A stretch of 32,686 bases of DNA from positions 9,022-41,707 of the forward strand of contig NZ_AYYT01000018.1 of the NCBI RefSeq assembly GCF_001435955.1, in the 5' to 3' direction. Each line of letters begins with the position of its first letter. The stretch's first letter is position 1. The notes below the pieces were generated by a model. The model did no database searches and was not told the DNA's origin. It saw only the letters and a program-made list of their open reading frames with translations. Of the stretch, positions 3,352 to 21,217 are shown piece by piece. The position numbers were made by a program, and so were the translations under genes. The stretch comes from Ligilactobacillus salivarius DSM 20555 = ATCC 11741 (GTDB lineage: Bacteria > Bacillota > Bacilli > Lactobacillales > Lactobacillaceae).

Positions 3352-3387
3352 ATAAGAGTAGAACTCTAAAAAGTAAGGATGAGCGAG

Positions 3388-4404
3388 ATGACAGAAAAAA
3401 TTGCAGTTCTTGGTGCTGGATCTTGGGGAAGTATCTTGGCTGGTGTTTTAGATGAAAATAAAAACGAAGTATGGTTGTGGACTAATAAAGAATCACAAGC
3501 CAAAGAATTAAATGAAAACCATACTAATGAACATTACATACCAGGACACAAGTATTCAGAAACAATTAAGGCTACAACAAATCTTAAAGAGGCAGTTGAT
3601 GGAGCTTCAGCAGTTTTATTCGTAGTACCTACTAAAGTAATAAGACTAGTTGCTCAACAATTAGTTGAAGTTTTAAAAGAACTAGGACAAAAGCCATTAA
3701 TTATTCATGCAAGTAAAGGGCTTGAATTAGGTTCTCACAAACGAATTTCTGAAGTAATAGAAGAAGAAATTCCAAGTGAATATTGTAAAGATGTAGTAGT
3801 CTTATCTGGACCAAGTCATGCTGAAGAAGTAGCACGTAAAGATATTACTTTAATTACGGCAGCTTGTGAAAACTTAGATTCAGCTAAGAAGGTACAATCT
3901 TTATTTATGAATGATTATTTAAGAATTTATACAAATAAAGATGTAATAGGTGTTGAAACAGGAGCAGCATTTAAGAATGTTATTGCGATTGGTGCAGGTG
4001 CTTTGCATGGTTTAGGTTATGGTGATGACGCTAAAGCCGCTTTAATGACACGTGGTTTGGCTGAAATTAGTAGATTAGGTGTTGCTTTTGGTGCTGATCC
4101 ACTAACATTTATCGGTTTATCAGGTGTAGGTGATCTAATCGTTACATGTACTAGTGTTCATTCAAGAAACTGGCGTGCAGGTAATCAACTAGGTAAGGGT
4201 AAGGCACTTGATGAAGTTATTCAAGATATGGGCATGGTTATTGAAGGTATCAATACTTGTAAAGCAGCCTATGAATTAGCTCAACAAAAAAATATTGAAA
4301 TGCCAATTACTGAAGCTATCTATAATGTTCTTTATAATGGTAAAGATATTAAAGATGAAATTAGTTTATTGATGCAACGCGAAGGAAAAGAAGAAATTAA
4401 ATGA
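3388..4404 (+). CDS. gpsA: Glycerol-3-phosphate dehydrogenase [NAD(P)+]
   Basis: Cytosolic enzyme that interconverts dihydroxyacetone phosphate and sn-glycerol 3-phosphate, supplying the glycerol backbone for membrane lipids and teichoic acids. The 338 residues begin with a Rossmann motif, VLGAGSWGS (Gly9-Gly14). They carry LSGPSHAEE, the catalytic AFKN with Lys196, and the substrate-binding [16 protein letters not shown] block, all typical of GpsA. I place the start at 3388 because AAGGA lies 8 nt upstream. The in-frame ATG at 3379 overlaps that Shine-Dalgarno and would leave no spacing. Its product feeds the glycolipid and LTA pathway found at the end of this window, though the genes are unlinked. 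Confidence 0.94.
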
Positions 4405-4413
4405 TTATTTTTT

Positions 4414-4443
4414 GAGGTAGTCTGATTGAGGCTACCTTTTTTA
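4414..4443 (+). terminator. Rho-independent terminator after gpsA
   Basis: GAGGTAGTC and GGCTACCT form a stem with one G-T pair around TGATTGA, followed directly by TTTTTT. Confidence 0.85.
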
Positions 4444-4539: not shown

Positions 4540-5982
4540 ATGGAAAAGATAAGTATAAAGTATTTAACTAAAAAAAGTCCGCTTTTAAGCGATAAGAATA
4601 AAAAATCAGAAAATAATTTTTGGTCTTTACGAGGGATCACTTTTAGCGTAACTGAAGGCGAAGCGATAGGTTTGATTGGGAGGAATGGTTCTGGAAAAGC
4701 CTTGTTACTAAAAATATTAGCAGGGCTAGAAGAACCTACTACAGGATTTATATCAACAAAGTCCCATATATATTTAGCATCAATGACAAATTCTATTAAT
4801 TTTCAGTTAACAGGACTTGAAAATATAAAAAAACAAGTAGACCAAGCATACGATGATGAAATTGAAGCTGATCATGTAGTTAAGGCGATTATTGATTTTA
4901 CTGAAATCGGGCAATGGGTATATCGACCAGTATCAGAATACTCAACAGGAATGTTGTCTAGACTAGCATTATCGATAGCTTTATTTAACAAACCTGAAGT
5001 AGTTTTGTTGGATGAAGTATTTGCATCGTTAGAAAGAGCATTCTTTGAAAAAGTTATTCGAAAAATTCAAGATTTAAAAGATCATGGAGTATCTTTTATT
5101 ATTACAGCTACGACTGGTTTAGTATTAGAAACTCTATGTGAACGTTCGATGTGGTTAGACTTTGGTGAAGTAAAAGAATTAGGTCCTACTCAAATTGTAA
5201 TGAGTAAATTCCAGTATCAAAATGATTGGTATAATGGTCTAACATTACCTGAAAAAAATAAATACTTAAAAGAAAAGCAAATAGAACAAGAAAATTTTGA
5301 TATTACTAAAGTGTATAATGAGTTCAAAGTTGAACAATTTGAGCATGGATATACTAGACGCGATGAACCTAGAATGAAAAAAGCATTTTATCACAATCAT
5401 CGCCAAGACCCAGTAATATCTGAAGCAGAGAAAGAAGTAAAAAATAACAATCTGAATAAGAATGTTAAAGGACATAAAAAGAAAAAAGGTAATAAGGGAT
5501 TAGTTAGAGTTGTAGGTGTTGTACTAGTTCTAATCTTATTACTAGGTGTAGGTAAGGTGTTGCATTCACACCATGAAACAAAAAACAGACAAGTGGAATC
5601 TAGTAAAAAAGTTGAAGCTAAGAAACGCTATAGCAAATCAGTATCTATCTCTAAAGCTGAGGAAGCAAGCAAGCAAAGTAAGATTGAGAGTTCAAAGAAA
5701 GAGCAAAGTTTAGCAGAAAGTAAACGTGCAAGTGAAGCAGCAGCCTCAAGTGCTGCCGCTGCAAGTGAAAGTGCTAGAAAAGCTAGTGAGAGTGCTGCCA
5801 GTGAAAGTAAAGCTTCTATGTTATCAAACTCACAGGAAGTGACAGTTAATGATGGTGATACTTTAGCAACGTTAGCTAGCCAATATGGAACGACAGCACA
5901 AGCTATTCAAGATTTGAATGATATGGGGACAAGTAACTCATTAACGGCTGGGCAAACTATTAGAGTTCCAAATAGTAATTAG
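4540..5982 (+). CDS. TagH-like degenerate ABC ATPase with TM and LysM domains
   Basis: The N-terminal 230 residues (480 in all) resemble ABC ATPases of the teichoic-acid/polysaccharide exporter type (TagH/Wzt): NxQLTGLENI, a signature YSTGMLSR (residues 134-141) and Walker B VVLLDE (Asp158, Glu159). Walker A reads GRNGSGKA, so the Mg-coordinating Ser/Thr is Ala54, and the switch His is Ala190 (ITAT instead of ISHS). These losses suggest weak or absent ATP hydrolysis. A basic patch (310-320) and one membrane helix (about 324-341) come next. A Ser/Ala/Glu/Lys-rich linker and a C-terminal LysM (about 434-477) follow, so the ABC-like domain should be inside and LysM outside. The ATG at 4540 has AAAGGTGAG 8 nt upstream; a GTG at 4534 is too close. 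No TagG-like permease is adjacent. It may be a scaffold or a regulator; its function is unknown. Confidence 0.8.
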   Translation: MEKISIKYLTKKSPLLSDKNKKSENNFWSLRGITFSVTEGEAIGLIGRNGSGKALLLKILAGLEEPTTGFISTKSHIYLASMTNSINFQLTGLENIKKQVDQAYDDEIEADHVVKAIIDFTEIGQWVYRPVSEYSTGMLSRLALSIALFNKPEVVLLDEVFASLERAFFEKVIRKIQDLKDHGVSFIITATTGLVLETLCERSMWLDFGEVKELGPTQIVMSKFQYQNDWYNGLTLPEKNKYLKEKQIEQENFDITKVYNEFKVEQFEHGYTRRDEPRMKKAFYHNHRQDPVISEAEKEVKNNNLNKNVKGHKKKKGNKGLVRVVGVVLVLILLLGVGKVLHSHHETKNRQVESSKKVEAKKRYSKSVSISKAEEASKQSKIESSKKEQSLAESKRASEAAASSAAAASESARKASESAASESKASMLSNSQEVTVNDGDTLATLASQYGTTAQAIQDLNDMGTSNSLTAGQTIRVPNSN

Positions 5983-5988
5983 AAATAT

Positions 5989-6020
5989 AAGGGGTAGGTG
6001 TTGAAACCTGCTCTTTTCTT
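5989..6020 (+). terminator. Terminator after the ABC/LysM gene
   Basis: GGGTAGGT pairs with ACCTGCTC (two G-T pairs) around GTTGAA, followed by TTTTCTT. The stem is modest. Confidence 0.6.
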
Positions 6021-6070: not shown

Positions 6071-7648
6071 ATGGATAAAAAACAATTAGAAGAATCAGTT
6101 AATAATCGTCGTACATTTGCGATTATTTCTCACCCGGATGCTGGTAAGACTACGATAACTGAACAATTATTACTTTTTGGTGGAGTTGTAAGAAAAGCAG
6201 GAACTGTTAAAGCTAAAAAAAGTGGAAATTTTGCTAAGTCTGACTGGATGGAAATTGAAAAGAAACGTGGAATTTCTGTAACAAGTTCGGTAATGCAATT
6301 TGACTATGCTGGGAAAAAAGTCAACATTCTTGATACACCTGGGCACGAAGATTTTTCCGAAGATACATATCGTACTTTGATGGCGGTTGACTCAGCTGTC
6401 ATGGTTATTGACTCAGCTAAGGGTATTGAACCACAAACAAAGAAATTATTCCAAGTTTGTCGTATGAGAGGTATTCCAATTTTTACTTTTATTAATAAAT
6501 TGGACCGCGATGGTAGAGAACCATTAGATTTAACAGCTGAATTGGAAGATGTTTTGGGAATTGAATCCTATGCTATGAACTGGCCAATTGGTATGGGTAA
6601 AGGTTTGAAGGGGTTATATGACATTTATAATCATCGCATTGAATTGTACCGTTCTGAAGATGAAGGTCAAGCCTTTTTAGAATTAGACGATAATGGTGAA
6701 ATAAAAGGAGATAACCCATTAAAAGATGAAAGTATCTACAAACAAGTTTTAGAAGAAATAGAACTTATTGAAGGTGCAGGTAGTGAATTTGATGAAGAAA
6801 AAATCGCTAAAGGTGAATTGACACCAGTATTTTTCGGATCTGCACTGACAAACTTTGGTGTTAAGACATTCTTAGATGCATACTTAAAATACGCTCCAAA
6901 GCCTGCAGCACATAAAACAGAAGATGGTTCAGAAGTAGAGCCAGATAGAAAAGATTTCTCTGGATTTATCTTCAAGATTCAAGCCAACATGAATCCAAAT
7001 CATCGTGACCGTATTGCTTTTGTTAGAATCTGTTCCGGTGAATTTGATAGAGGAATGGATGTGTTCCTAGAAAGAACAGGCAAGAAACTAAGATTATCTA
7101 ATTCAACTCAGTTTATGGCTGATACACGTGAAACATTGGAAACAGCTGTTGCTGGGGATATTATTGGTTTATATGATACTGGTAACTTCCAAATTGGAGA
7201 TTCAATTTATACAGGTAAAAAAGCTGTTAAATTTGAAAAATTGCCACAATTTACACCAGAATTATTTATGCGTGTGACTGCCAAGAATGTTATGAAACAA
7301 AAATCTTTTCATAAAGGAATTCAACAATTAGTACAAGAAGGAGCTGTTCAGCTCTACCAAAGTTACAGTACTGGAGATTATATTTTAGGTGCTGTAGGAC
7401 AACTTCAATTTGAAGTGTTCCAATTTAGAATGGCAAATGAATATAACTCTGAAGTTGTTATGACTCCAATGGGACATAAGATTGCACGTTGGATTGATCC
7501 AGAACAATTAGATGAAAAGATGTCTAGTTCACGAAATCTTCTAGTTAAGGATAGAGCTGGTATGCCATTATTCTTATTCGAAAATGAATTCGCTGAAAGA
7601 TGGTTTATGGATAAATATCCAGATGTTAAATTAACAGCTAAATTATAA
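6071..7648 (+). CDS. prfC: Peptide chain release factor 3
   Basis: Translational GTPase that removes RF1 or RF2 from the ribosome after peptide release. The 525 residues match the usual length. G1 is SHPDAGKT (residues 20-27), the switch [10 protein letters not shown] starts at Asp88, and G4 is NKLD (142-145). RF3-specific blocks are present: [35 protein letters not shown], and the C-terminal [18 protein letters not shown], LepA and TypA lack these combinations. A strong GAGAGG precedes the ATG at good spacing. The gene stands alone between terminators. Confidence 0.95.
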
Positions 7649-7759: not shown

Positions 7760-10849
<3,090 letters not shown>

Positions 10850-10857
10850 CAAAATAG

Positions 10858-10893
10858 AGTCTCGTATTTCTTATGAAGTATGAGACTTTTTTG
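10858..10893 (+). terminator. Rho-independent terminator after lacZ
   Basis: A 13-bp stem AGTCTC..TTC / GAA..GAGACT with two G-T wobbles, loop TTAT and a run of six T. It separates lacZ from lacS. Confidence 0.9.
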
Positions 10894-10940
10894 ATACAAA
10901 AGAACAGGTGGTAAATGTATATGATGTCACTAAAATAACT

Positions 10941-10980
10941 TTAGTAAAAATTAATAAAAAATATCCTGAAAATTTACTAA
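10941..10980. promoter_or_regulatory. Probable operator pair upstream of lacS
   Basis: TTAGTAAA (10941-10948) and TTTACTAA (10973-10980) are inverted octamers with centres 32 bp apart, about three helical turns. The second ends 6 bp before the lacS -35. They match the octamers at lacZ and galK. Confidence 0.6.
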
Positions 10981-10986
10981 ACATTA

Positions 10987-11015
10987 TTGACTTAATCGTT
11001 GAAATCGTTTACTAT
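10987..11015 (+). promoter_or_regulatory. lacS promoter
   Basis: TTGACT (10987-10992), 17 bp, then TACTAT (11010-11015). It sits directly after the second octamer and overlaps a cre-like site. Confidence 0.65.
11000..11013 (+). promoter_or_regulatory. cre site (CcpA) in the lacS promoter
   Basis: TGAAATCGTTTACT matches 13 of 14 positions of the cre consensus TGWAANCGNTNWCA. It covers the spacer and -10 of the lacS promoter, a place where CcpA would block RNA polymerase when glucose is present. Confidence 0.7.
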
Positions 11016-11050
11016 AAAGTTGTAAAAAATAGTAAAGGGGATTTCGTTAT

Positions 11051-12985
11051 ATGGAAATAAGAAATTCACAAAGTAAAAGTGAGAAGATTACTTCTCGTAT
11101 TGCATATACCTTTGGTGCCTTTGGTAACGATGTGTTTTATGCAGCGATGTCTACATATTTAATTAATTTTATTACATCTCATTTGTTTGATACAGGGGAT
11201 AAAACGTTAAATAACCATTTAGTTAGTGCTGTTACATTGATTATCATGGTTTTACGTATTGTTGAATTATTAATTGATCCATTTATTGGTAACGCTATCG
11301 ACCGTACCAAGACACGCTGGGGACACTTTCGTCCTTGGGTAGTAATTGGTGGTACTGTTTCATCAATTGCTTTATTGGCATTATTCTCAAATATGGGTGG
11401 TTTAACTAAAACACATCCATGGTTATATTTAGTAATTTTTGCATTTCTTTATATTGCAATGGATATATTCTATTCATTTAAAGACGTCGGTTTCTGGTCT
11501 ATGTTGCCAGCGCTATCATTTGATTCAAGAGAACGTGAAAAGACAGCTACATTTGCTCGTATCGGTTCTTCAATCGGTGGTTCCTTAGTTGGTGTTGTTG
11601 TTATGCCTCTTGTATTATTCTTCTCCCTTCAAAGTAATGGAGGAACAGGTGATGACAGAGGTTGGTTCTGGTTTGGCTTTATTGTAGCTGCAGTTGCTTT
11701 TGTAACAGCATTAGCAGTTGGTATTGGAACACGTGAAGTTGACAATAAATTACGTGAAAATAAAGAAGATACAGCTGGTGTAAGTGCAGTTTTCAAGATG
11801 TTAGTTAAGAATGACCAATTAATGTGGGTAGCTTTGGCTTACTTACTATATGGTGTAGGAGTTAACTTAGTAAATGCTCTAGAACTTTACTACTTCCAAT
11901 ATATTATGGGGAATCCAAAAGGTTTCAGTCTACTACAATTTATAAACATGTTTGTAGGTATTTTTGCTGTAAGTGCCTTCCCTAAATTAGCAGATAAATT
12001 AAATCGTAAGCCATTATTTATTTGGTGTTTAGTAACTATGTTAATTGGAATTGGTTTATTCACTGTTGCTGGCAAGAGTTTATTGCTTGTATTGATTGCC
12101 GCTGAATTATTCTACATTCCTCAACCAATTGTTTTCTTAGTTATTTTAATGATTATTACTGACTCCGTTGAATATGGTCAATGGAAGTTAGGGCATCGTG
12201 ACGAATCACTTGCTTTATCAGTTCGTCCTTTAGTTGATAAGTTCGGTGGAGCTGTTTCTAACGGTGTTGTAGGACAAATTGCTGTTTTAGCAGGAATGAC
12301 TACTGGTGCAACTGCTGCTTCTATCACTATGCATCAACAAATGGTCTTCAAATTTATGATGTTTGGTGTTCCAGCAATCTTCATTTTAATTGGGATGTTT
12401 GTTTTCTGGAAGAAGATTACTTTAACTGAAGAGCGACATGCAGAAATCGTTGCAGAACTTGAAAAGACTTGGGGCTATCAATTTGATCAATCTAATGCAG
12501 AAAACGATAAGTTAATTAAGTCTGACGAATTAACTGCAATGGTTCCAGTAGCAGGTAAAGTTATTGCTATGAAAGATGTACCTGATGAAGTATTTTCAAC
12601 GGGTAAGATGGGACAAGGTATTGCAATTAAACCTACAGATGGTAAAGTATATGCCCCATTTGATGCTGAAGTTAAGACAGTCTTTGCAACTCGTCACGCT
12701 ATTGGTTTGGTTTCTGATAACGGAATTCCAGTTCTAATTCACGTAGGTATTGGTACTGTTTCTATGAAGGGTACAGGTTTTGTAACATATGTCAGAGAAG
12801 GACAACATGTTAAGAAAGGTCAACAAATTCTTGAATTCTGGGATCCAGCAATTAAGAAAGCTGGTTTAGATGATACAGTATTAATGACCTTTACACATTC
12901 AGATTTATTTAAGGAATTTGATGTAAAAGTACCAGTTGGTTCAGAAGTTGTTAATACAAATACAGCTATTGAAATAAAGAAATAG
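11051..12985 (+). CDS. lacS: Lactose/galactoside permease LacS with C-terminal IIA domain
   Basis: Membrane transporter of the GPH (glycoside-pentoside-hexuronide) family, which imports lactose with a cation or in exchange for galactose. Twelve membrane helices occupy about residues 15-460, with the family motif GNAIDRTKTRWGHFRPW after helix 2. A IIA-Glc-like domain follows at about 505-644. Its phosphorylatable His is His564 in LIHVGIGTVSMKG, and the partner is His549 in TRHAIGL. The 644-residue length is typical. In the LacS of Streptococcus thermophilus, HPr phosphorylates this domain to tune transport, and ptsHI lie about 12 kb downstream here. GGGG lies 10 nt before the ATG. Melibiose or raffinose transport is possible too, given the alpha-galactosidase in the same cluster. 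Confidence 0.95.
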   Translation: MEIRNSQSKSEKITSRIAYTFGAFGNDVFYAAMSTYLINFITSHLFDTGDKTLNNHLVSAVTLIIMVLRIVELLIDPFIGNAIDRTKTRWGHFRPWVVIGGTVSSIALLALFSNMGGLTKTHPWLYLVIFAFLYIAMDIFYSFKDVGFWSMLPALSFDSREREKTATFARIGSSIGGSLVGVVVMPLVLFFSLQSNGGTGDDRGWFWFGFIVAAVAFVTALAVGIGTREVDNKLRENKEDTAGVSAVFKMLVKNDQLMWVALAYLLYGVGVNLVNALELYYFQYIMGNPKGFSLLQFINMFVGIFAVSAFPKLADKLNRKPLFIWCLVTMLIGIGLFTVAGKSLLLVLIAAELFYIPQPIVFLVILMIITDSVEYGQWKLGHRDESLALSVRPLVDKFGGAVSNGVVGQIAVLAGMTTGATAASITMHQQMVFKFMMFGVPAIFILIGMFVFWKKITLTEERHAEIVAELEKTWGYQFDQSNAENDKLIKSDELTAMVPVAGKVIAMKDVPDEVFSTGKMGQGIAIKPTDGKVYAPFDAEVKTVFATRHAIGLVSDNGIPVLIHVGIGTVSMKGTGFVTYVREGQHVKKGQQILEFWDPAIKKAGLDDTVLMTFTHSDLFKEFDVKVPVGSEVVNTNTAIEIKK

Positions 12986-12993
12986 AGATTAAT

Positions 12994-13031
12994 AAAAAAG
13001 TATGAGCTCAATTGAACTCATACTTTTTTTG
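12994..13031. terminator. Bidirectional terminator between lacS and galR
   Basis: AAAAAAGTATGAG and CTCATACTTTTTT form a perfect 13-bp stem with A and T runs on both sides. It serves lacS on the plus strand and galR on the minus strand. Confidence 0.92.
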
Positions 13032-13044
13032 TGAAGATAAATAA

Positions 13045-14067
<1,023 letters not shown>

Positions 14068-14076
14068 TCAATATAT

Positions 14077-14085
14077 ATTGTATCA
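14077..14085 (-). promoter_or_regulatory. Extended -10 promoter of galR
   Basis: On the minus strand the sequence is TGATACAAT, an extended -10 with a TACAAT core (14077-14082). No good -35 is seen. Confidence 0.5.
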
Positions 14086-14119
14086 TAGATTGATATAATA
14101 ATAAATTTTTCTCATATTT

Positions 14120-14148
14120 TTAGTAAATTTTATTGAAAAGTTTACTAA
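14120..14148. promoter_or_regulatory. Probable operator pair at the galK promoter
   Basis: TTAGTAAA (14120-14127) and TTTACTAA (14141-14148) are inverted octamers with centres 21 bp apart, two helical turns. The pair brackets the galK -35, and the second lies in the promoter spacer, an effective place for a repressor. Confidence 0.65.
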
Positions 14149-14161
14149 AAAGTACTACAAT
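14133..14161 (+). promoter_or_regulatory. galK promoter
   Basis: TTGAAA (14133-14138), 17 bp, then TACAAT (14156-14161): five of six bases match in each box. It likely drives galK-galE-galT and the alpha-galactosidase gene. Confidence 0.75.
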
Positions 14162-14171
14162 AAAATTGTTA

Positions 14172-14185
14172 ATAAAACGTTTTCT
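14172..14185 (+). promoter_or_regulatory. Weak cre-like site downstream of the galK promoter
   Basis: ATAAAACGTTTTCT has the AAACGTTTTC core of cre sites but three mismatches to the 14-base consensus. It lies just after the expected transcription start. Confidence 0.4.
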
Positions 14186-14214
14186 TTATACGAGATAACG
14201 AGGAGGATTATATT

Positions 14215-15378
14215 ATGGATAAAAAGGTAATTAATGATAAATTTACAGAAATTTTTGGTGAACAAGCTGAAGCTACATTCTTCTCACCAGGACGTATTAA
14301 TTTAATTGGTGAACATACAGACTATAATGGCGGTCATGTTTTCCCATGTGCAATTAGCTTAGGAACTTATGGTGCTGCTCGTAAACGTGAAGATAATAAA
14401 TTACGTTTTTATTCCGCTAACTTTGAAGATTTAGGAATTATCGAAACATCACTTGATGATTTAAAGTACGACAAAAAAGACAATTGGGTAAATTATGCTA
14501 AAGGGATGATTTATTTCTTAAAGGAAACTGGTCATGATGTTGATAAAGGAATGGACATCTTTATTGAAGGAAATATTCCTAATGGTTCCGGCTTATCTTC
14601 ATCTGCTTCATTAGAAATGTTAATTGGTGTAATTGCCCAAGAATTATTTAACTTAGATATTGATCGTGTTGACTTAGTTAAGTTAGGAATGGAAACAGAA
14701 AATAAATTTATTGGTGTAAATTCTGGTATTATGGATCAATTTGCAGTAGGAATGGGTAAACAAAACCAAGCAATCTTATTAGATACTAATACTCTTGAAT
14801 ATTCATATGCACCAGTAGATATGGGAAATAACGTAATTGTTATTATGAATACAAACAAACGTCGTGAATTAGCTGATTCTAAGTATAATGAACGTCGTAG
14901 TGAATGTGAAACTGCAGTAGGTGAATTACAAGCTAAATTAGATATTAATACTTTAGGTGAACTAGATGCTCAAACTTTTGATGAATATGCTTACTTAATT
15001 GAAGACGAAAATCGTTTGAAGAGAGCACGCCATGCTGTATGGGAAAATCAACGTACAATGCAAGCACAAGCTGCATTAGAAGAAGGTGACCTAGAAAAAT
15101 TCGGTCGCTTAGTAAATGCATCACATGTTTCACTTGAACATGATTATGAAGTTACAGGAATCGAGCTTGATACATTAGCACATACTGCTTGGAAACAAGA
15201 AGGTGTACTTGGAGCTCGTATGACTGGTGCTGGTTTTGGTGGTTGTGGTATCGCAATTGTTGATAAAGATAAAGTTGAAGCATTTAAAGAAAATGTGGGT
15301 AAGGTTTATACAGAAAAGATAGGTTATGCTCCTGCATTCTATATTGCAGAAATTGCAGATGGAACAAAAGTACTTTAA
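14215..15378 (+). CDS. galK: Galactokinase
   Basis: Phosphorylates alpha-D-galactose with ATP to galactose-1-phosphate, the first committed Leloir step. The 387-residue GHMP kinase has the galactokinase signature [15 protein letters not shown] (residues 26-40), the ATP-binding loop [13 protein letters not shown], and the C-terminal [12 protein letters not shown] motif. GAGGAGG lies at good spacing before the ATG. It is first in a same-strand run with galE, galT and the alpha-galactosidase gene at gaps of 18-31 bp, so one mRNA is likely. Confidence 0.97.
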
Positions 15379-15405
15379 TAAAGAATAATTAATGGAGGGA
15401 TTTTG

Positions 15406-16401
15406 ATGGCTACTTTAGTTTTAGGTGGAGCTGGATATATTGGTTCACATACAGTGGATAGATTGATAGAGAAGGGTGAAAAAACAATCGTTGTTGATAG
15501 TCTGGTGACTGGACATCGTCAAGCGGTTAACAAGGATGCTAAGTTTTATCAAGGAGATATTGCAGATAAAGATTTTATGCGTCAAGTTTTTAAAGAAAAC
15601 TCTGATATAGATGCGGTCATTCACTTTGCTGCCTATTCTTTAGTAGCAGAGTCCATGAAAAAGCCATTGAAGTATTTTGATAACAATACTGCTGGAATGG
15701 TTAAGTTATTAGAAGTAATGAATGAATTTTCAATTGATAAAATTGTTTTTTCATCTACAGCAGCTACTTACGGTATTCCAGAAGAAGTTCCCATTAAGGA
15801 AACAACTCCACAAAATCCAATCAATCCATATGGAGAAAGTAAGTTAATGATGGAAAAGATTATGCGTTGGGCTGATAAAGCATATGGAATAAAATTTGTA
15901 CCATTACGTTACTTTAATGTGGCTGGTGCTAAACCTGATGGATCAATCGGTGAAGATCATATGCCTGAAACTCATCTTTTACCAATTGTGTTACAAGTAG
16001 CAATGGGTAAAAGAGATAAGCTACAAATCTTTGGCGATAATTATAATACTCCAGATGGTACTAATATAAGAGATTATGTTCATCCTTTAGATTTGGCAGA
16101 TGCGCATATTCTAGCGGTAGATTATCTAAAAGCCGGTAATCCAAGTACGGCATTTAACTTAGGTTCGTCTACAGGTTTTTCTAATCGAGAAATTTTAGAA
16201 GCTGCAAGAAAGGTTACAAATAAAGAAATCCCAGCTGAAATAGCACCTAGACGTGGTGGAGATCCAGATGTATTAGTGGCTTCTTCTACAAAAGCGCGAG
16301 AAGTTTTAGGTTGGAAACCTCAATTTGATGATATTAGTAAGATTATTGAGACAGCGTGGAAGTGGCACACTTTACATCCAGAAGGTTATCAAGATAAGTA
16401 A
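15406..16401 (+). CDS. galE: UDP-glucose 4-epimerase
   Basis: NAD-dependent interconversion of UDP-galactose and UDP-glucose, which recycles the UDP-sugar used by GalT. The 331 residues show the Rossmann motif GGAGYIGSH (from Gly7) and the SDR catalytic pair Tyr142/Lys146 in NPYGESK. The substrate-binding RYFNVAGA and the late [10 protein letters not shown] motif are also present. I start at the ATG 15406, which has GGAGGG 6 nt upstream; a TTG one codon earlier is less likely. It sits 27 bp after galK. It can also supply UDP-galactose for cell-surface sugars. Confidence 0.96.
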
Positions 16402-16419
16402 AGAGAGGTTCTGAGAAAG

Positions 16420-17907
16420 ATGGATGATAAATTACTATTAGATACATTTATAAAACAAGTAATTGAACAAGGAAATTATACAGAACTTGATAGGAATTAC
16501 TTATATAATCGGATTTTGAATTTGGTAGGAGAAGGTGTTGAAAAACTAACAACTACTAAAAATGAAATTATTGATTTAAAAGACGGGCTAGTCGAATATG
16601 CTGTCCAACATGGTAAAGTTGGTGAAACTTTGAATGAACAAGATTGTTTAGGCGCAGAGTTGATGAATTTCATTACTCCTTTACCAAGTAAAGTTAATCA
16701 AGATTTTTGGCAAACTTACCAACAAAATTCACCAGAAGAAGCTATTCAGAATTTTTATGATTTAAGTAAGCGAAATGACTATATTAAGACAAAAGCTATT
16801 GCGAAAAATATTTATTTTCCAGTTGAAACATCATATGGACAATTAGAGATAACAATTAATTTATCGAAGCCTGAGAAGGATCCAAAACAAATTGCTTTGG
16901 CTAAAAAGATGAAGGCAAGTGGATACCCTCTATGTCAACTTTGTATGGAAAATGAAGGCTATCAAGGAAGAGTTAATTATCCTGCAAGAGCAAATCATAG
17001 AATTATTCGTTTCGATTTAGATGATAAACAATGGGGATTCCAATATTCGCCATATGCTTATTTTAATGAACATTGTATTTTCTTAGATACAATTCATGAA
17101 CCAATGGAAATCACCAAGCAAACATTCAATAATTTGTTAGGTATTATTGAGCAATTTCCAGGATATTTTGTAGGAAGTAATGCTGATCTGCCAATTGTAG
17201 GTGGTTCTATATTAACACATGAACATTATCAAGGTGGACGTCATACTTTCGCAATGGAAAAAGCACCAATAGAAACAGAATTAAAATTTGCAGGTTATGA
17301 AGATATACAAGCAGGAATTGTTAAATGGCCAATGTCAGTTATTCGTTTACGTGGAAATTCAAAAGAAGATTTAGTAGATCTAGCTGATAAAATTCTAAAA
17401 ACTTGGCGTAGATATTCAGATGAAAAAGTTTCTGTCTTAGCTGAATCTAATGGTGAAAAACATCATACGATTACGCCAATTGCTCGCAAACGAGATGGAC
17501 AGTTAGAATTAGATTTGGTATTGCGTGATAATCAAACTTCAGAACAATATCCAGATGGCATCTACCATCCTCATCCAGATGTTCAACATATTAAGAAAGA
17601 AAATATTGGGTTAATTGAAGTAATGGGATTAGCAATTTTACCTCCTCGTTTGAAAGGTGAACTTCAAGAAGTTGAGAAATACTTATTAGGTCAAGAAAAT
17701 AAAATGGAAGAATATCATCAAGTGTGGGCTGATGATATTAAACAAAAATATTCAGATATAAATCAAGATAATGTTGATACAATTATTCATCAAGAATTAG
17801 GTCGAGTATTTGCTAGAGTGCTAGAAGATGCTGGAGTTTATAAGCATGATGAAACCGGTAGAATGGCATTTAAACGTTTTGTAGAAGAAGTAGGCATTGT
17901 GGATTAA
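16420..17907 (+). CDS. galT: Galactose-1-phosphate uridylyltransferase, Firmicutes type
   Basis: Transfers UMP from UDP-glucose to galactose-1-phosphate, giving UDP-galactose and glucose-1-phosphate. At 495 residues it belongs to the long Gram-positive GalT class rather than the approximately 350-residue E. coli class. The active-site His-Glu-His is His267-Glu-His269 in [10 protein letters not shown]. Other family blocks are [26 protein letters not shown] and [25 protein letters not shown] lies 11 nt before the ATG. Spacing of 18 bp after galE supports cotranscription. Confidence 0.95.
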
Positions 17908-17938
17908 AGTAAACTATAGCTAAGGAAGGTTTGGTAAA

Positions 17939-20134
17939 GTGGTAGATTTAATTACAGTAGATAAAGAAAATCGAGTTTTTCATTTGCATAATGAGCAACT
18001 TTCATATATTTTTTCAATTGAAGATGGCGATACTATTAGTCATTTATATTTTGGTAAAAGGGTAAAAAGTTATCATGGACAATTACGTTATCCACGAGTA
18101 GATAGAGGATTTTCTGGTAATTTACCAGGTAGTTTAGATAGAACCTTTTCCAAAGATACTTTGCCACAAGAATATAGTAGTGCCGGTGAGATGGATTATC
18201 GAGTTCCAGCAACAGTAGTGCGTCAAAAAGATGGCTCAAATGGCTTAATGCTAAAATATAAGACTTACAAAGTTGAAGAAGGAAAACCTGAATTGACAGG
18301 ACTTCCAGCAGCTTATGTAGAGTCAGAATCGGAAGCTAATACTTTGATTGTTACGCTAGAAGACGAGAAAAGTGGAGTTTTATTTGACTTACTATATACA
18401 ATATATCGTGATTATCCAATTATTACACGTTCAGTTAAGGTTAAGAATCTAGGACAAGAAAATGTAAACTTGGAAAAAGTTGCATCCATGCAAATAGATT
18501 TCTCTCAACGAGACTTTGATGTAATTAGTTTACCAGGAGCCCATGTAAACGAACGTCATTTAGAAAGACAAAAATTAGGATATGGGATTCAAACATTTGG
18601 TAGCATTCGTGGTACTTCTAGTCATCAAATGAATCCGTTTGTTGCTTTGGTTGATAGCAATACTGATGAATTCAATGGTGCTGCGTATGGCTTTGCGTTA
18701 GTTTACTCAGGAAACCATGCTTTTGAAATTGAAAAAGATCAACTTGATCAAGTTCGATTATTAGTAGGGATTAATGGTTATAATTTCAATTGGCAGTTGC
18801 CAGCAGGGGAAAGTTTCCAAACTCCAGAAGTATTAATGACATATACTGATAATGGATTGAATGCTATGAGTAAAGCATTTCATAGTATTATCAGAGATAG
18901 AATTACACGCTCCAAATATAAATATAAGGAACGCCCAATTCTAGTTAATAATTGGGAAGCTACATATTTTGACTTTGATGAAGATAAATTAAAGCCAATC
19001 GTAGACGAAGCCAAGGAACTGGGGATAGAGATGTTTGTATTAGATGATGGATGGTTTGGTCATCGCGATGACGATAATTCATCATTAGGTGATTGGAATG
19101 TATACGAGAAAAAATTCCCTCAAGGCTTAAAACATTTTGCAGATTACGTACACAGCAAAGATTTGAAATTTGGTATTTGGTTTGAACCAGAAATGATTTC
19201 AATGGATTCAGAATTATATAGAAATCATCCTGAATATTTGATGCAAGTTCCAGGAAGACAACCAAGTCCATCACGTAATCAATATATTTTAGATATGACA
19301 AGAAAAGATGTCAGAGATGACATAGTTGATCAGGTTTCAACTATTATTGCTGATAATGACATTGACTATGTTAAGTGGGATATGAATCGTAATTTATCTG
19401 ATATCTATTCACAAAATCTACCTGCAGATAGACAAGGTGAAGTTTATCATCGCTATGTTCTAGGGGTTTATGATATTTTAGAAAGAATAACTAGCAAGTT
19501 CCCAGATGTTTTATTTGAAGGTTGCTCTGGTGGCGGTGGACGATTTGATGCAGGTTTTGTTTACTACATGCCACAAAGCTGGACTAGTGATAATACGGAC
19601 GCAATTGCCAGATTAACTATTCAATATGGTACAAGTTTAGTATATCCACCATCAATGATGACAGCTCATGTGTCTGCAGTTCCAAATCATCAAACTGGTA
19701 GAGTGACACCAATCGATACTAGAGGTGCAGTTGCTATGAGTGCAGTCTTTGGTTACGAGTTAGACTTAACAACATTAACAGACGAAGAAAAAGAAATTGT
19801 TAAAAAACAAGTAAATCAATACAAAGGTATTAGAAAATTAGTCCAATACGGAGATTTCTATCGTTTACAATCTTCTAAAGATGGAAATAAAACAGCTTGG
19901 ATGTTTGTAAGCCCTCAAAAAGCTGAAGCAGTAGTAATGGTATGTAAAGTTTTAGCAGAAGCTCAACCTGTATTAACGAAAACTAAATTATATGGCTTGG
20001 ATACCAATAGGAACTACCGTGATGTTGAAACTAATAAGGTTTATGGTGGCGATGAATTAATGGAATTAGGATTCTATGATCCTATTATCCGTAATGACTA
20101 TGCTGCTACAATGTATCATTTTAAAGCTGAATAA
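17939..20134 (+). CDS. melA: Alpha-galactosidase, GH36
   Basis: Removes terminal alpha-galactose from melibiose, raffinose or stachyose in the cytoplasm. The 731 residues have the GH36 three-domain layout: N-terminal beta-supersandwich (about 1-325), catalytic barrel and C-terminal beta domain. The nucleophile is Asp481 in VKWDMNR and the acid/base is Asp551 in SWTSDNTDA, spaced 70 residues apart as in bacterial GH36 enzymes. LDDGWFG, GIWFEPEMIS and FEGCSGGGGRFDAG are also present. No signal peptide. The start is a GTG with AGGAAGG 9 nt upstream. As last gene of the gal run it would be induced with the Leloir genes, letting the cell use plant alpha-galactosides. Confidence 0.95.
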   Translation: MVDLITVDKENRVFHLHNEQLSYIFSIEDGDTISHLYFGKRVKSYHGQLRYPRVDRGFSGNLPGSLDRTFSKDTLPQEYSSAGEMDYRVPATVVRQKDGSNGLMLKYKTYKVEEGKPELTGLPAAYVESESEANTLIVTLEDEKSGVLFDLLYTIYRDYPIITRSVKVKNLGQENVNLEKVASMQIDFSQRDFDVISLPGAHVNERHLERQKLGYGIQTFGSIRGTSSHQMNPFVALVDSNTDEFNGAAYGFALVYSGNHAFEIEKDQLDQVRLLVGINGYNFNWQLPAGESFQTPEVLMTYTDNGLNAMSKAFHSIIRDRITRSKYKYKERPILVNNWEATYFDFDEDKLKPIVDEAKELGIEMFVLDDGWFGHRDDDNSSLGDWNVYEKKFPQGLKHFADYVHSKDLKFGIWFEPEMISMDSELYRNHPEYLMQVPGRQPSPSRNQYILDMTRKDVRDDIVDQVSTIIADNDIDYVKWDMNRNLSDIYSQNLPADRQGEVYHRYVLGVYDILERITSKFPDVLFEGCSGGGGRFDAGFVYYMPQSWTSDNTDAIARLTIQYGTSLVYPPSMMTAHVSAVPNHQTGRVTPIDTRGAVAMSAVFGYELDLTTLTDEEKEIVKKQVNQYKGIRKLVQYGDFYRLQSSKDGNKTAWMFVSPQKAEAVVMVCKVLAEAQPVLTKTKLYGLDTNRNYRDVETNKVYGGDELMELGFYDPIIRNDYAATMYHFKAE

Positions 20135-20136
20135 AT

Positions 20137-20182
20137 AAAAAAAGAGATGTAAGTTGAATTTCAACTACATCTCTTTTTAAAA
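20137..20182. terminator. Bidirectional terminator
   Basis: AAAAAGAGATGTA..GTTGAA and TTCAACTACATCTCTTTTT pair over 19 bp with a single bulged A. It ends the gal operon and the convergent minus-strand gene. Confidence 0.9.
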
Positions 20183-21217
20183 TTGTAGATATTCCCAAAT
20201 AGTCCAACCTAGGCCATCGACTTCAAACCAAAGCATACGACCGACACGGTTACGAGCAGTTATGAGTACAGTCTTTCCATTTTCTATCTCATTAATTTTT
20301 TTACCAAATGGTCGATCATAAAGAGCAAGTTTTTGGTTAGGTACAAAGTTAATTTCAGCAGTAACAGATAATTTAACTGGTTCAGGAATACTTAGTTCAG
20401 GATCATCCTGGATAGGAGCAATCTTTAATGTATCTGATAAAGTATATGGATTGTTTTCTAGTAATTCCATGCGTTGTTCATCAAATTTAACCCAGGAATT
20501 TCCGCCAATGTTATACCACCAATCATTATTGATAAGCTGAATAGACTCAAATGTTTGCCAAATAGTATCTGGAGCAAGTGTGACAGAAATATCATGTCCT
20601 TCAGGTTCTGTATAACTTAAACAATAAGAATTGATACGAAGATAATGTACATTATGATCAACAATTTTCCAACGTGATTTACGATAATAGTATGTGACTA
20701 ATTGTTGTTTATCTGAGAAGACACCACGAGTAGGCCCAACAGCTTTTTGTAGTGAATAGTCAGGGATGGTAGGGGCATTTAATTCAAAGCGTTCCCCAAA
20801 ATCTCCTCGGATAAAGACAGGACGCATCAGTAACTTTTGCTTATCAATATCTTGTGAAAATAGCCAAACATCAGCCCCTTGATGTTTACGATAGGTAAGA
20901 GTTATAGAACCATATGGATCAACAAAGGCACTAGTAAATCCTGAAATATTAATTAAGTCATAGTTGGGAAATTCTTTGAATCTTAAATGAAGTTCTTCGC
21001 CAATATATCCGGAAATAATTTGTGGAGTAGTCAGACTTTGACCACGATCGTCTTGATATATGATGATTAAAGTAGCGTTATGTCCAACTTTAGTGATAGG
21101 TTCCTTATTTTTATCTGAGAGATAACTTTTTTCAACTGTGGATACATCATTTTTTTGTTTTGTTTCATTATTTTTATTAAACTTCATCAAGTTTTTTACT
21201 GAGTCTAAGAATGCCAT
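20177..21217 (-). CDS. MucBP/SH3-like repeat protein without export signal
   Basis: Unknown function, 346 residues. Two modules resemble MucBP folds: about residues 48-111 (ATLIIIYQDDRGQSL ... GSITLTYRK) and 128-178 (ending LVTYYYRKS). Two SH3-like beta modules follow at about 180-265 and 285-346, the last ending GLGWTIWEYLQF. Such domains usually sit on secreted surface proteins. This one starts MAFLDSVKNLMKFNKNN, has no signal peptide, no membrane helix and no LPxTG, and so looks cytoplasmic or membrane-peripheral through its amphipathic start. It has its own promoter and RBS (GAGGTG) and is convergent with the gal operon. The domain calls are by eye and moderately sure; a fold search could change them. 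Confidence 0.6.
   Translation of the reverse strand: MAFLDSVKNLMKFNKNNETKQKNDVSTVEKSYLSDKNKEPITKVGHNATLIIIYQDDRGQSLTTPQIISGYIGEELHLRFKEFPNYDLINISGFTSAFVDPYGSITLTYRKHQGADVWLFSQDIDKQKLLMRPVFIRGDFGERFELNAPTIPDYSLQKAVGPTRGVFSDKQQLVTYYYRKSRWKIVDHNVHYLRINSYCLSYTEPEGHDISVTLAPDTIWQTFESIQLINNDWWYNIGGNSWVKFDEQRMELLENNPYTLSDTLKIAPIQDDPELSIPEPVKLSVTAEINFVPNQKLALYDRPFGKKINEIENGKTVLITARNRVGRMLWFEVDGLGWTIWEYLQF

Follow-up and report, generated by a model that had tools for sequence, protein, structure and literature searches.

The gene at positions 4540..5982 (+ strand) of the window, meaning the whole 32,686-nucleotide stretch of DNA analysed here, encodes a member of a protein family that is homologous to TagH, the ATPase subunit of TagGH (the exporter of wall teichoic acid), and that has lost motor residues of this enzyme. 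We refer to it as pseudo-TagH and, on sequence grounds, lean towards the reading that an exporter ATPase became a non-hydrolysing, TagG-independent membrane scaffold that would connect the cell wall with a partner in the cytoplasm or membrane.

The open reading frame, checked for coordinates and frame, starts with ATG, comprises 480 amino acids and is preceded at ~10 bases by a ribosome-binding-like AAAGGTG, as judged by eye. It sits between gpsA (3379-4404) and prfC (6071-7648). A stem scan against shuffled sequences revealed three terminator-like stems in the region, both strands included (shuffle mean 0.5), among them one 3' of gpsA and hence 5' of the pseudo-TagH gene (4414..4438, +) and one 3' of the pseudo-TagH gene itself (5989..6016, +). 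Given these stems on both flanks, the gene probably forms a transcription unit by itself. The terminator reported in the initial annotation was thus recovered, while the -10 box that it assigned to the gene did not stand out, as promoter-like sites were no more frequent than expected by chance (7 versus a shuffle mean of 6.4). As that annotation had also stated, no ABC permease gene is adjacent: none was present among the annotated neighbours, five around the gene and ten further on. Elsewhere in the window, positions 7817-20134 hold a galactoside block with a LacZ-type beta-galactosidase, a LacI regulator (- strand), a galactokinase, an MFS-type sugar transporter with a PTS EIIA tail, an NAD-dependent epimerase, GalT and a GH36 alpha-galactosidase, and positions 20177-21217 (- strand) encode a probable surface protein with a MucBP domain match.

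The ABC (nucleotide-binding) domain spans residues 1-235 (4540..5244, +; Pfam ABC_tran, 7.3e-20). Its nearest solved structures are those of TagH/TarH (PDB 7dd0 at 4.9e-42, and at 1.3e-59 with the genus profile), and homology to these proteins (PDB 7dd0, 6jbh and 9cfl) covers the whole length of the domain. The NCBIfam models for the teichoic acid export ATPase gave scores far under the curated values (150.4 versus 538 and 121.8 versus 320 bits). Downstream of the ABC domain, also on the + strand, follow a motif predicted to be cytoplasmic (residues 258-291; 5311..5412), a membrane helix (residues ~321-340; 5500..5559), a poorly conserved linker rich in Ser, Ala, Lys and Glu (5560..5835; sequence and identity scan) and a LysM domain (residues 435-477; 5842..5970; Pfam E 2e-11, 44.1 bits versus a cut-off of 20.9). 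The initial annotation had likewise described one helix, the only one in our hydrophobicity scan, followed by a linker of this composition and a LysM domain.

We compared the motor residues of 36 family members (25 from the window's genus, ten from a second genus and one from a third; near-copies are included, and L037 equals L038 in the tree) with those of 21 true TagHs, which form a subset of all matches. The H-switch His column, Thr191 in the window (5110..5112, +), contains His in none of the 36 family members and in all 21 true TagHs. This column had been placed at Ala190 in the initial annotation, a residue that aligns with the Ser preceding the His; the pseudo-ABC reading itself is supported by the family-wide loss. 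The A-loop aromatic, a loss absent from that annotation, is also gone: its column (Ser13; 4576..4578, +) is aromatic in 0/36 family members compared to 19/19 readable true TagHs, a count that excludes two rows (L041, L042) whose N-ends are cut by the chosen start. Other motor positions, each intact in 21/21 true TagHs, persist in part of the family, namely the Ser/Thr after the P-loop Lys (position 54; 18/36), the catalytic Glu (Glu159; 9/36) and the signature Gly (Gly137; 27/36). While these residues drift, the P-loop Lys53 and Walker B Asp158 are found in all 36 members, and the Gly-rich P-loop is retained in at least 94%. Among the 74 columns of residues 1-259 that are invariant in true TagHs (at least 95%), the family keeps 30 at 90% or more and has 27 at less than 25%, the lost columns taking in the Q-loop and the helix region after it.

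In the window itself, Walker A reads GSGKA with Ala54 in place of Ser/Thr (P-loop, residues 47-55; 4678..4704, +), the signature reads YSTGM (residues 134-138; 4939..4953, +), and Asp158 and Glu159 of Walker B are followed by an ASLE D-loop at 162-165 (5011..5034 from Asp158 to Glu165, +), all in agreement with the initial reading. The catalytic set of a TagH is thus replaced at three positions (Ser13, Ala54 and Thr191) and retained at Glu159. Of the two substitutions highlighted at the outset, one turned out to be universal, the loss of the His, and Ala54 is not conserved. Intact GK(S/T) and His in relatives had been named as a sign of recent decay; at position 54 such relatives do exist, making up half of the family, and at the His column there are none. 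One family member, L018, has NTASKS instead of NGSGK plus Ser/Thr as its Walker A, a P-loop that is more degraded still.

In S. aureus TarH, as described in PMC11971408, Tyr14 represents the A-loop, Ser64 coordinates magnesium, Glu169 is a typical general base and His201 bonds the gamma-phosphate; the matching of these residues to pseudo-TagH columns is from our analysis. Because motor residues of the TarH type are missing in the family, we strongly infer that hydrolysis has been lost. The conserved Lys53 and Asp158 speak to some degree against a mere scaffold, as nucleotide may still be bound. Together with the Gly-rich P-loop, retained amid drifting catalytic neighbours, they would fit a protein whose P-loop binds nucleotide without splitting it and transmits a change in shape or pairing, by way of the helix, to the partner of the motif or the wall side. 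We consider such a nucleotide-gated switch unlikely: no member has the A-loop aromatic, the absence of the signature Gly from nine of the 36 would weaken ATP-sandwiched pairing, and a helix that crosses the membrane once and continues into a long linker of low conservation would be expected to conduct signals badly.

To place these losses in the history of the family, we used an unrooted maximum-likelihood tree of the ABC domain from which the seven key columns had been removed. A single branch splits the 36 family members from the 21 true TagHs (support 99/97), another has the 35 sequences of the first two genera on one side (100/99), and the second genus forms one group (97/99). The 25 sequences of the window's genus were not recovered as one group, needing 2 changes and falling on one side of a branch in 7% of the bootstrap trees. 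Long branches lead to L064, L040 and L039 (1.41, 1.28 and 1.05), and the third-genus member is on a long branch of 1.41. On this tree, the His column needs one change, Ser/Thr54 seven, Glu159 six and Gly137 four. In the simplest reading, the His and the A-loop aromatic were lost first, the aromatic being placed here because it is absent in all 36, and the others drifted afterwards in various lineages; the window's Ala54 would belong to these secondary changes. A single loss event is likely, if less than certain on a tree that lacks a root and has the third-genus member at the end of so long a branch.

The family is found throughout the window's genus. The genome of the window (1.98 Mb in 62 contigs) contains no second close copy of the gene (next match 30% identical, 5.8e-17), and no intact TagH-type partner gene was found in it. 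Orthologues were detected in 24 of the 25 other genomes of the genus, each at 4.3e-77 or better. The remaining assembly, G001, is 84% complete and was not taken as a true absence; since its prfC match, at 31% identity, is no true one, the gene region seems to be unassembled there. Searching 251 family genomes with the 25-sequence genus profile resulted in matches in 109, of which 22 are owners of pseudo-TagH. The same protein occurs in 10 second-genus genomes (2.7e-176 to 1.9e-185), a count of owners among the matches listed, as the 122 unlisted non-matching genomes could include further ones of this genus. The third genus, represented by a single genome among the 251, has a divergent member (1.5e-95). 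In an order-wide search at 1e-77, 5/395 genomes matched, four from the window's genus and the third-genus one, in a sample that may not contain the second genus. A Bacteroidia match at 28% identity, which came up in a search for related loci, is not an orthologue.

The gene also keeps its neighbourhood. Within flanks of up to 1.5 kb, gpsA is found upstream in 23/25 and prfC downstream in 18/25 loci of the window's genus, and at the one locus checked a CNNM/CorC-type gene lies between the pseudo-TagH gene and prfC. In the second genus, a ytvI-like transporter is upstream in 10/10 loci and prfC downstream in 8/10, again with a CorC-type gene in between at the one locus checked. In the third genus, the upstream genes encode a ytvI-like transporter, a tagD-like cytidylyltransferase and a CDP-glycerol glycerophosphotransferase, and downstream follow a small LysM protein, a CorC-type protein and prfC. 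Judged from the tagD-like and glycerophosphotransferase neighbours, the locus resembles a piece of an ancient teichoic acid cluster. The small LysM protein of the third genus appears to be of a membrane type, and its gene (L076, 8332-8961) lies directly 3' of the pseudo-TagH gene.

A TagG search at 1e-5, which detected relatives as low as 24% identity in other genomes, gave no match in that of the window. TagG was matched in 2/25 other genomes of the genus and in none of the 10 second-genus genomes. In both TagG-owning members of the genus, separate intact TagHs lie beside TagG, and the third-genus genome carries TagG elsewhere together with a separate intact TagH. TagB/TagF (PF04464) was likewise not matched in the window's genome and is present in 15/25 other genomes of the genus; with the wall teichoic acid genes predicted in W. 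confusa according to PMC12982343, this makes teichoic-type polymers possible within the genus and counts against a scaffold that is independent of the exporter. Searches for ABC-2 permeases (PF01061) returned three matches in the window's genome, one below the cut-off and two over it, each of the latter adjoining its own ATPase. Neither the protein nor the Pfam searches thus revealed a fitting TagG partner elsewhere in this genome, which the initial annotation had named as evidence against its view, and the suggestion in the same annotation that the protein might scaffold an exporter of teichoic acid has no support there. A permease too divergent for these searches is possible.

Such an unrecognised permease, or another ATPase beside which pseudo-TagH served as a regulatory half, would allow the protein to be an exporter subunit still. 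Descent from TagH, the teichoic acid genes adjoining the third-genus gene, the TagG elsewhere in that genome and the TagB/F-type gene in 15/25 other genomes of the window's genus would all agree with this. We nevertheless regard it as decidedly unlikely, since the two members of the window's genus with TagG have separate intact TagHs beside it, since the permeases over the cut-off in the window's genome have their own ATPases and no TagG is matched, and since the lost columns include the Q-loop and the helix region that follows it.

The gene is under purifying selection. For the pseudo-TagH gene alone (~240 codons), dN/dS ranged from 0.004 to 0.058 among the six pairs whose dS was <0.9 and had a median of 0.27 over the 114 usable of 630 pairs, the others being outside dS 0.05-2 or not computable. 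Between distant subclades it was 0.25-0.55, values that weigh against the scaffold reading, although at these distances synonymous sites approach saturation. Every extracted orthologue is open across the ABC domain and the motif. That the catalytic residues drift and that neither TagG nor TagB/F was matched in the window's genome is what a decaying remnant of a lost exporter, without present function, would also show. With open frames in all orthologues, the low dN/dS of close pairs, a conserved private motif and a conserved locus, this explanation is barely credible; recent decay is disfavoured by dN/dS, by the pattern of the His column and by the conserved locus.

The most conserved part of the protein is the motif that precedes the membrane helix (residues 258-291, consensus xYEEFKxEQFKxGYTRKDEPRMRKAFFVxxGxDP). 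Its mean pairwise identity was 0.73 over 34 distinct rows from two genera, compared to 0.55 for both the ABC domain and LysM; the values of the basic stretch, helix and linker were 0.20-0.26. The top 34-residue window among those tested (residues 1-322) starts at 259. A profile of the motif, built from 27 of the 36 rows with near-copies omitted and the third-genus member included, had one match at E 0.01 in each of 22 of the 251 family genomes, all of them owners of pseudo-TagH, with own-genome matches arising by construction. The 36 residues of the motif region in the window matched their own gene only. A docking module common to other proteins was rejected, as the profile matched the pseudo-TagH family only in the 251 genomes. 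LysM was found in 21/25 members of the window's genus, so that binding to the wall would not be constant, a further point against the scaffold. The constant core, as far as the sequences go, is the ABC fold, motif and helix, and LysM is usual, not universal. The four members without a LysM match are L033 and L040 (confirmed) and L035 and L036 (judged); L033, L035 and L036 share a nearly identical short tail after the helix.

Near the membrane, [ST]RxxR[RK] is the pattern of GpsB clients. It was present in 0/36 family members within the first 330 residues. In S. aureus, GpsB is linked to TarG, which is located at the division site, and B. subtilis TagH localises like GpsB, as reported in PMC9241681. 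The link between GpsB and TarG serves at most as a lead on where pseudo-TagH might be sought. It is a natural idea that pseudo-TagH may have inherited a place at the growing wall from the exporter.

In the scaffold reading that we favour, pseudo-TagH would descend from TagH, and the ABC domain would have lost the H-switch His and A-loop aromatic in an ancestor shared by these lineages. With TagG not found in most genomes that own the family, the ABC domain may have been retained as a folded cytoplasmic platform without hydrolysis. The private motif before the helix probably docks a partner; fold and motif together would hold one or more partners from the cytoplasm or membrane, and helix and flexible linker would put LysM on peptidoglycan in most species. 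A more far-reaching version, which we put forward tentatively as a possibility short of even chances, is that the dead ABC ATPase forms the core of a lineage-specific wall-to-cytoplasm scaffold that in these genera organises division or the growth of the wall, and that, once the exporter had been lost, it retained its fold and its position at the growing wall and gained its docking motif.

Several known systems resemble pseudo-TagH in part. MapZ-like streptococcal proteins have a cytoplasm-helix-wall layout. This overall arrangement is like that of pseudo-TagH, whereas the cytoplasmic domain is unrelated, and no MapZ domain was among the 7 Pfam matches of pseudo-TagH up to E 0.1. A short protein with a cytoplasm-helix-linker-LysM layout is also encoded on another contig of the window's genome (L080, 924-1475), beside a gene that by eye is cytidylate-kinase-like, and we take it to belong to the SAG1386/EF1546 family. 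In type I ABC exporters with a degenerate site, a second, intact site does the work. Their degenerate nucleotide sites have lost catalytic residues as pseudo-TagH has (described in PMC7756269); in contrast, no intact TagH-type partner gene for pseudo-TagH was found in the window's genome. FtsE uses its ATPase activity and a separate FtsX, whereas pseudo-TagH lacks residues for hydrolysis and has its helix in the same chain. Shared with FtsEX-type proteins, which transmit a signal in place of a substrate according to PMC11627006, would be the coupling of an ABC fold across the membrane to the wall. The layout is also shared with TagH/TarH. For B. subtilis TagH (the ATPase is named TagG in that source), PMC11466899 predicts a single helix followed by an SH3b-like outside domain, and a LysM tail was found in 4/6 true TagHs tested (L042, L044 and both of G007; not G017 and G078). 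The combination of helix and outside domain is thus already known for TagH, and neither a TagH with LysM nor an outside LysM is new or unusual. What distinguishes pseudo-TagH from TagH/TarH is the lack of the H-switch His and A-loop aromatic, the drift of the Mg-binding Ser/Thr and catalytic Glu, the private cytoplasmic motif and, in the window's genome, the absence of a TagG match. In the open-access literature, we found no account of a genus-wide TagH family that lacks the motor residues and, in most genomes, TagG.

ABC ATPases are viewed as motors, and pseudo-TagH provides a natural test case for what this fold can do without splitting ATP. This case rests on 35 genomes of two genera in which the motor residues are gone and TagG is mostly missing, together with purifying selection and a private motif. 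In this group of lactic acid bacteria, the set of teichoic acid genes varies from genome to genome, and the pseudo-TagH gene, as an apparent transcription unit of its own that could be deleted in food-grade strains, offers a handle on their wall biology. If the more far-reaching version of the scaffold reading is true, pseudo-TagH would parallel the pseudokinase scaffolds as a pseudo-ATPase made from an export motor.
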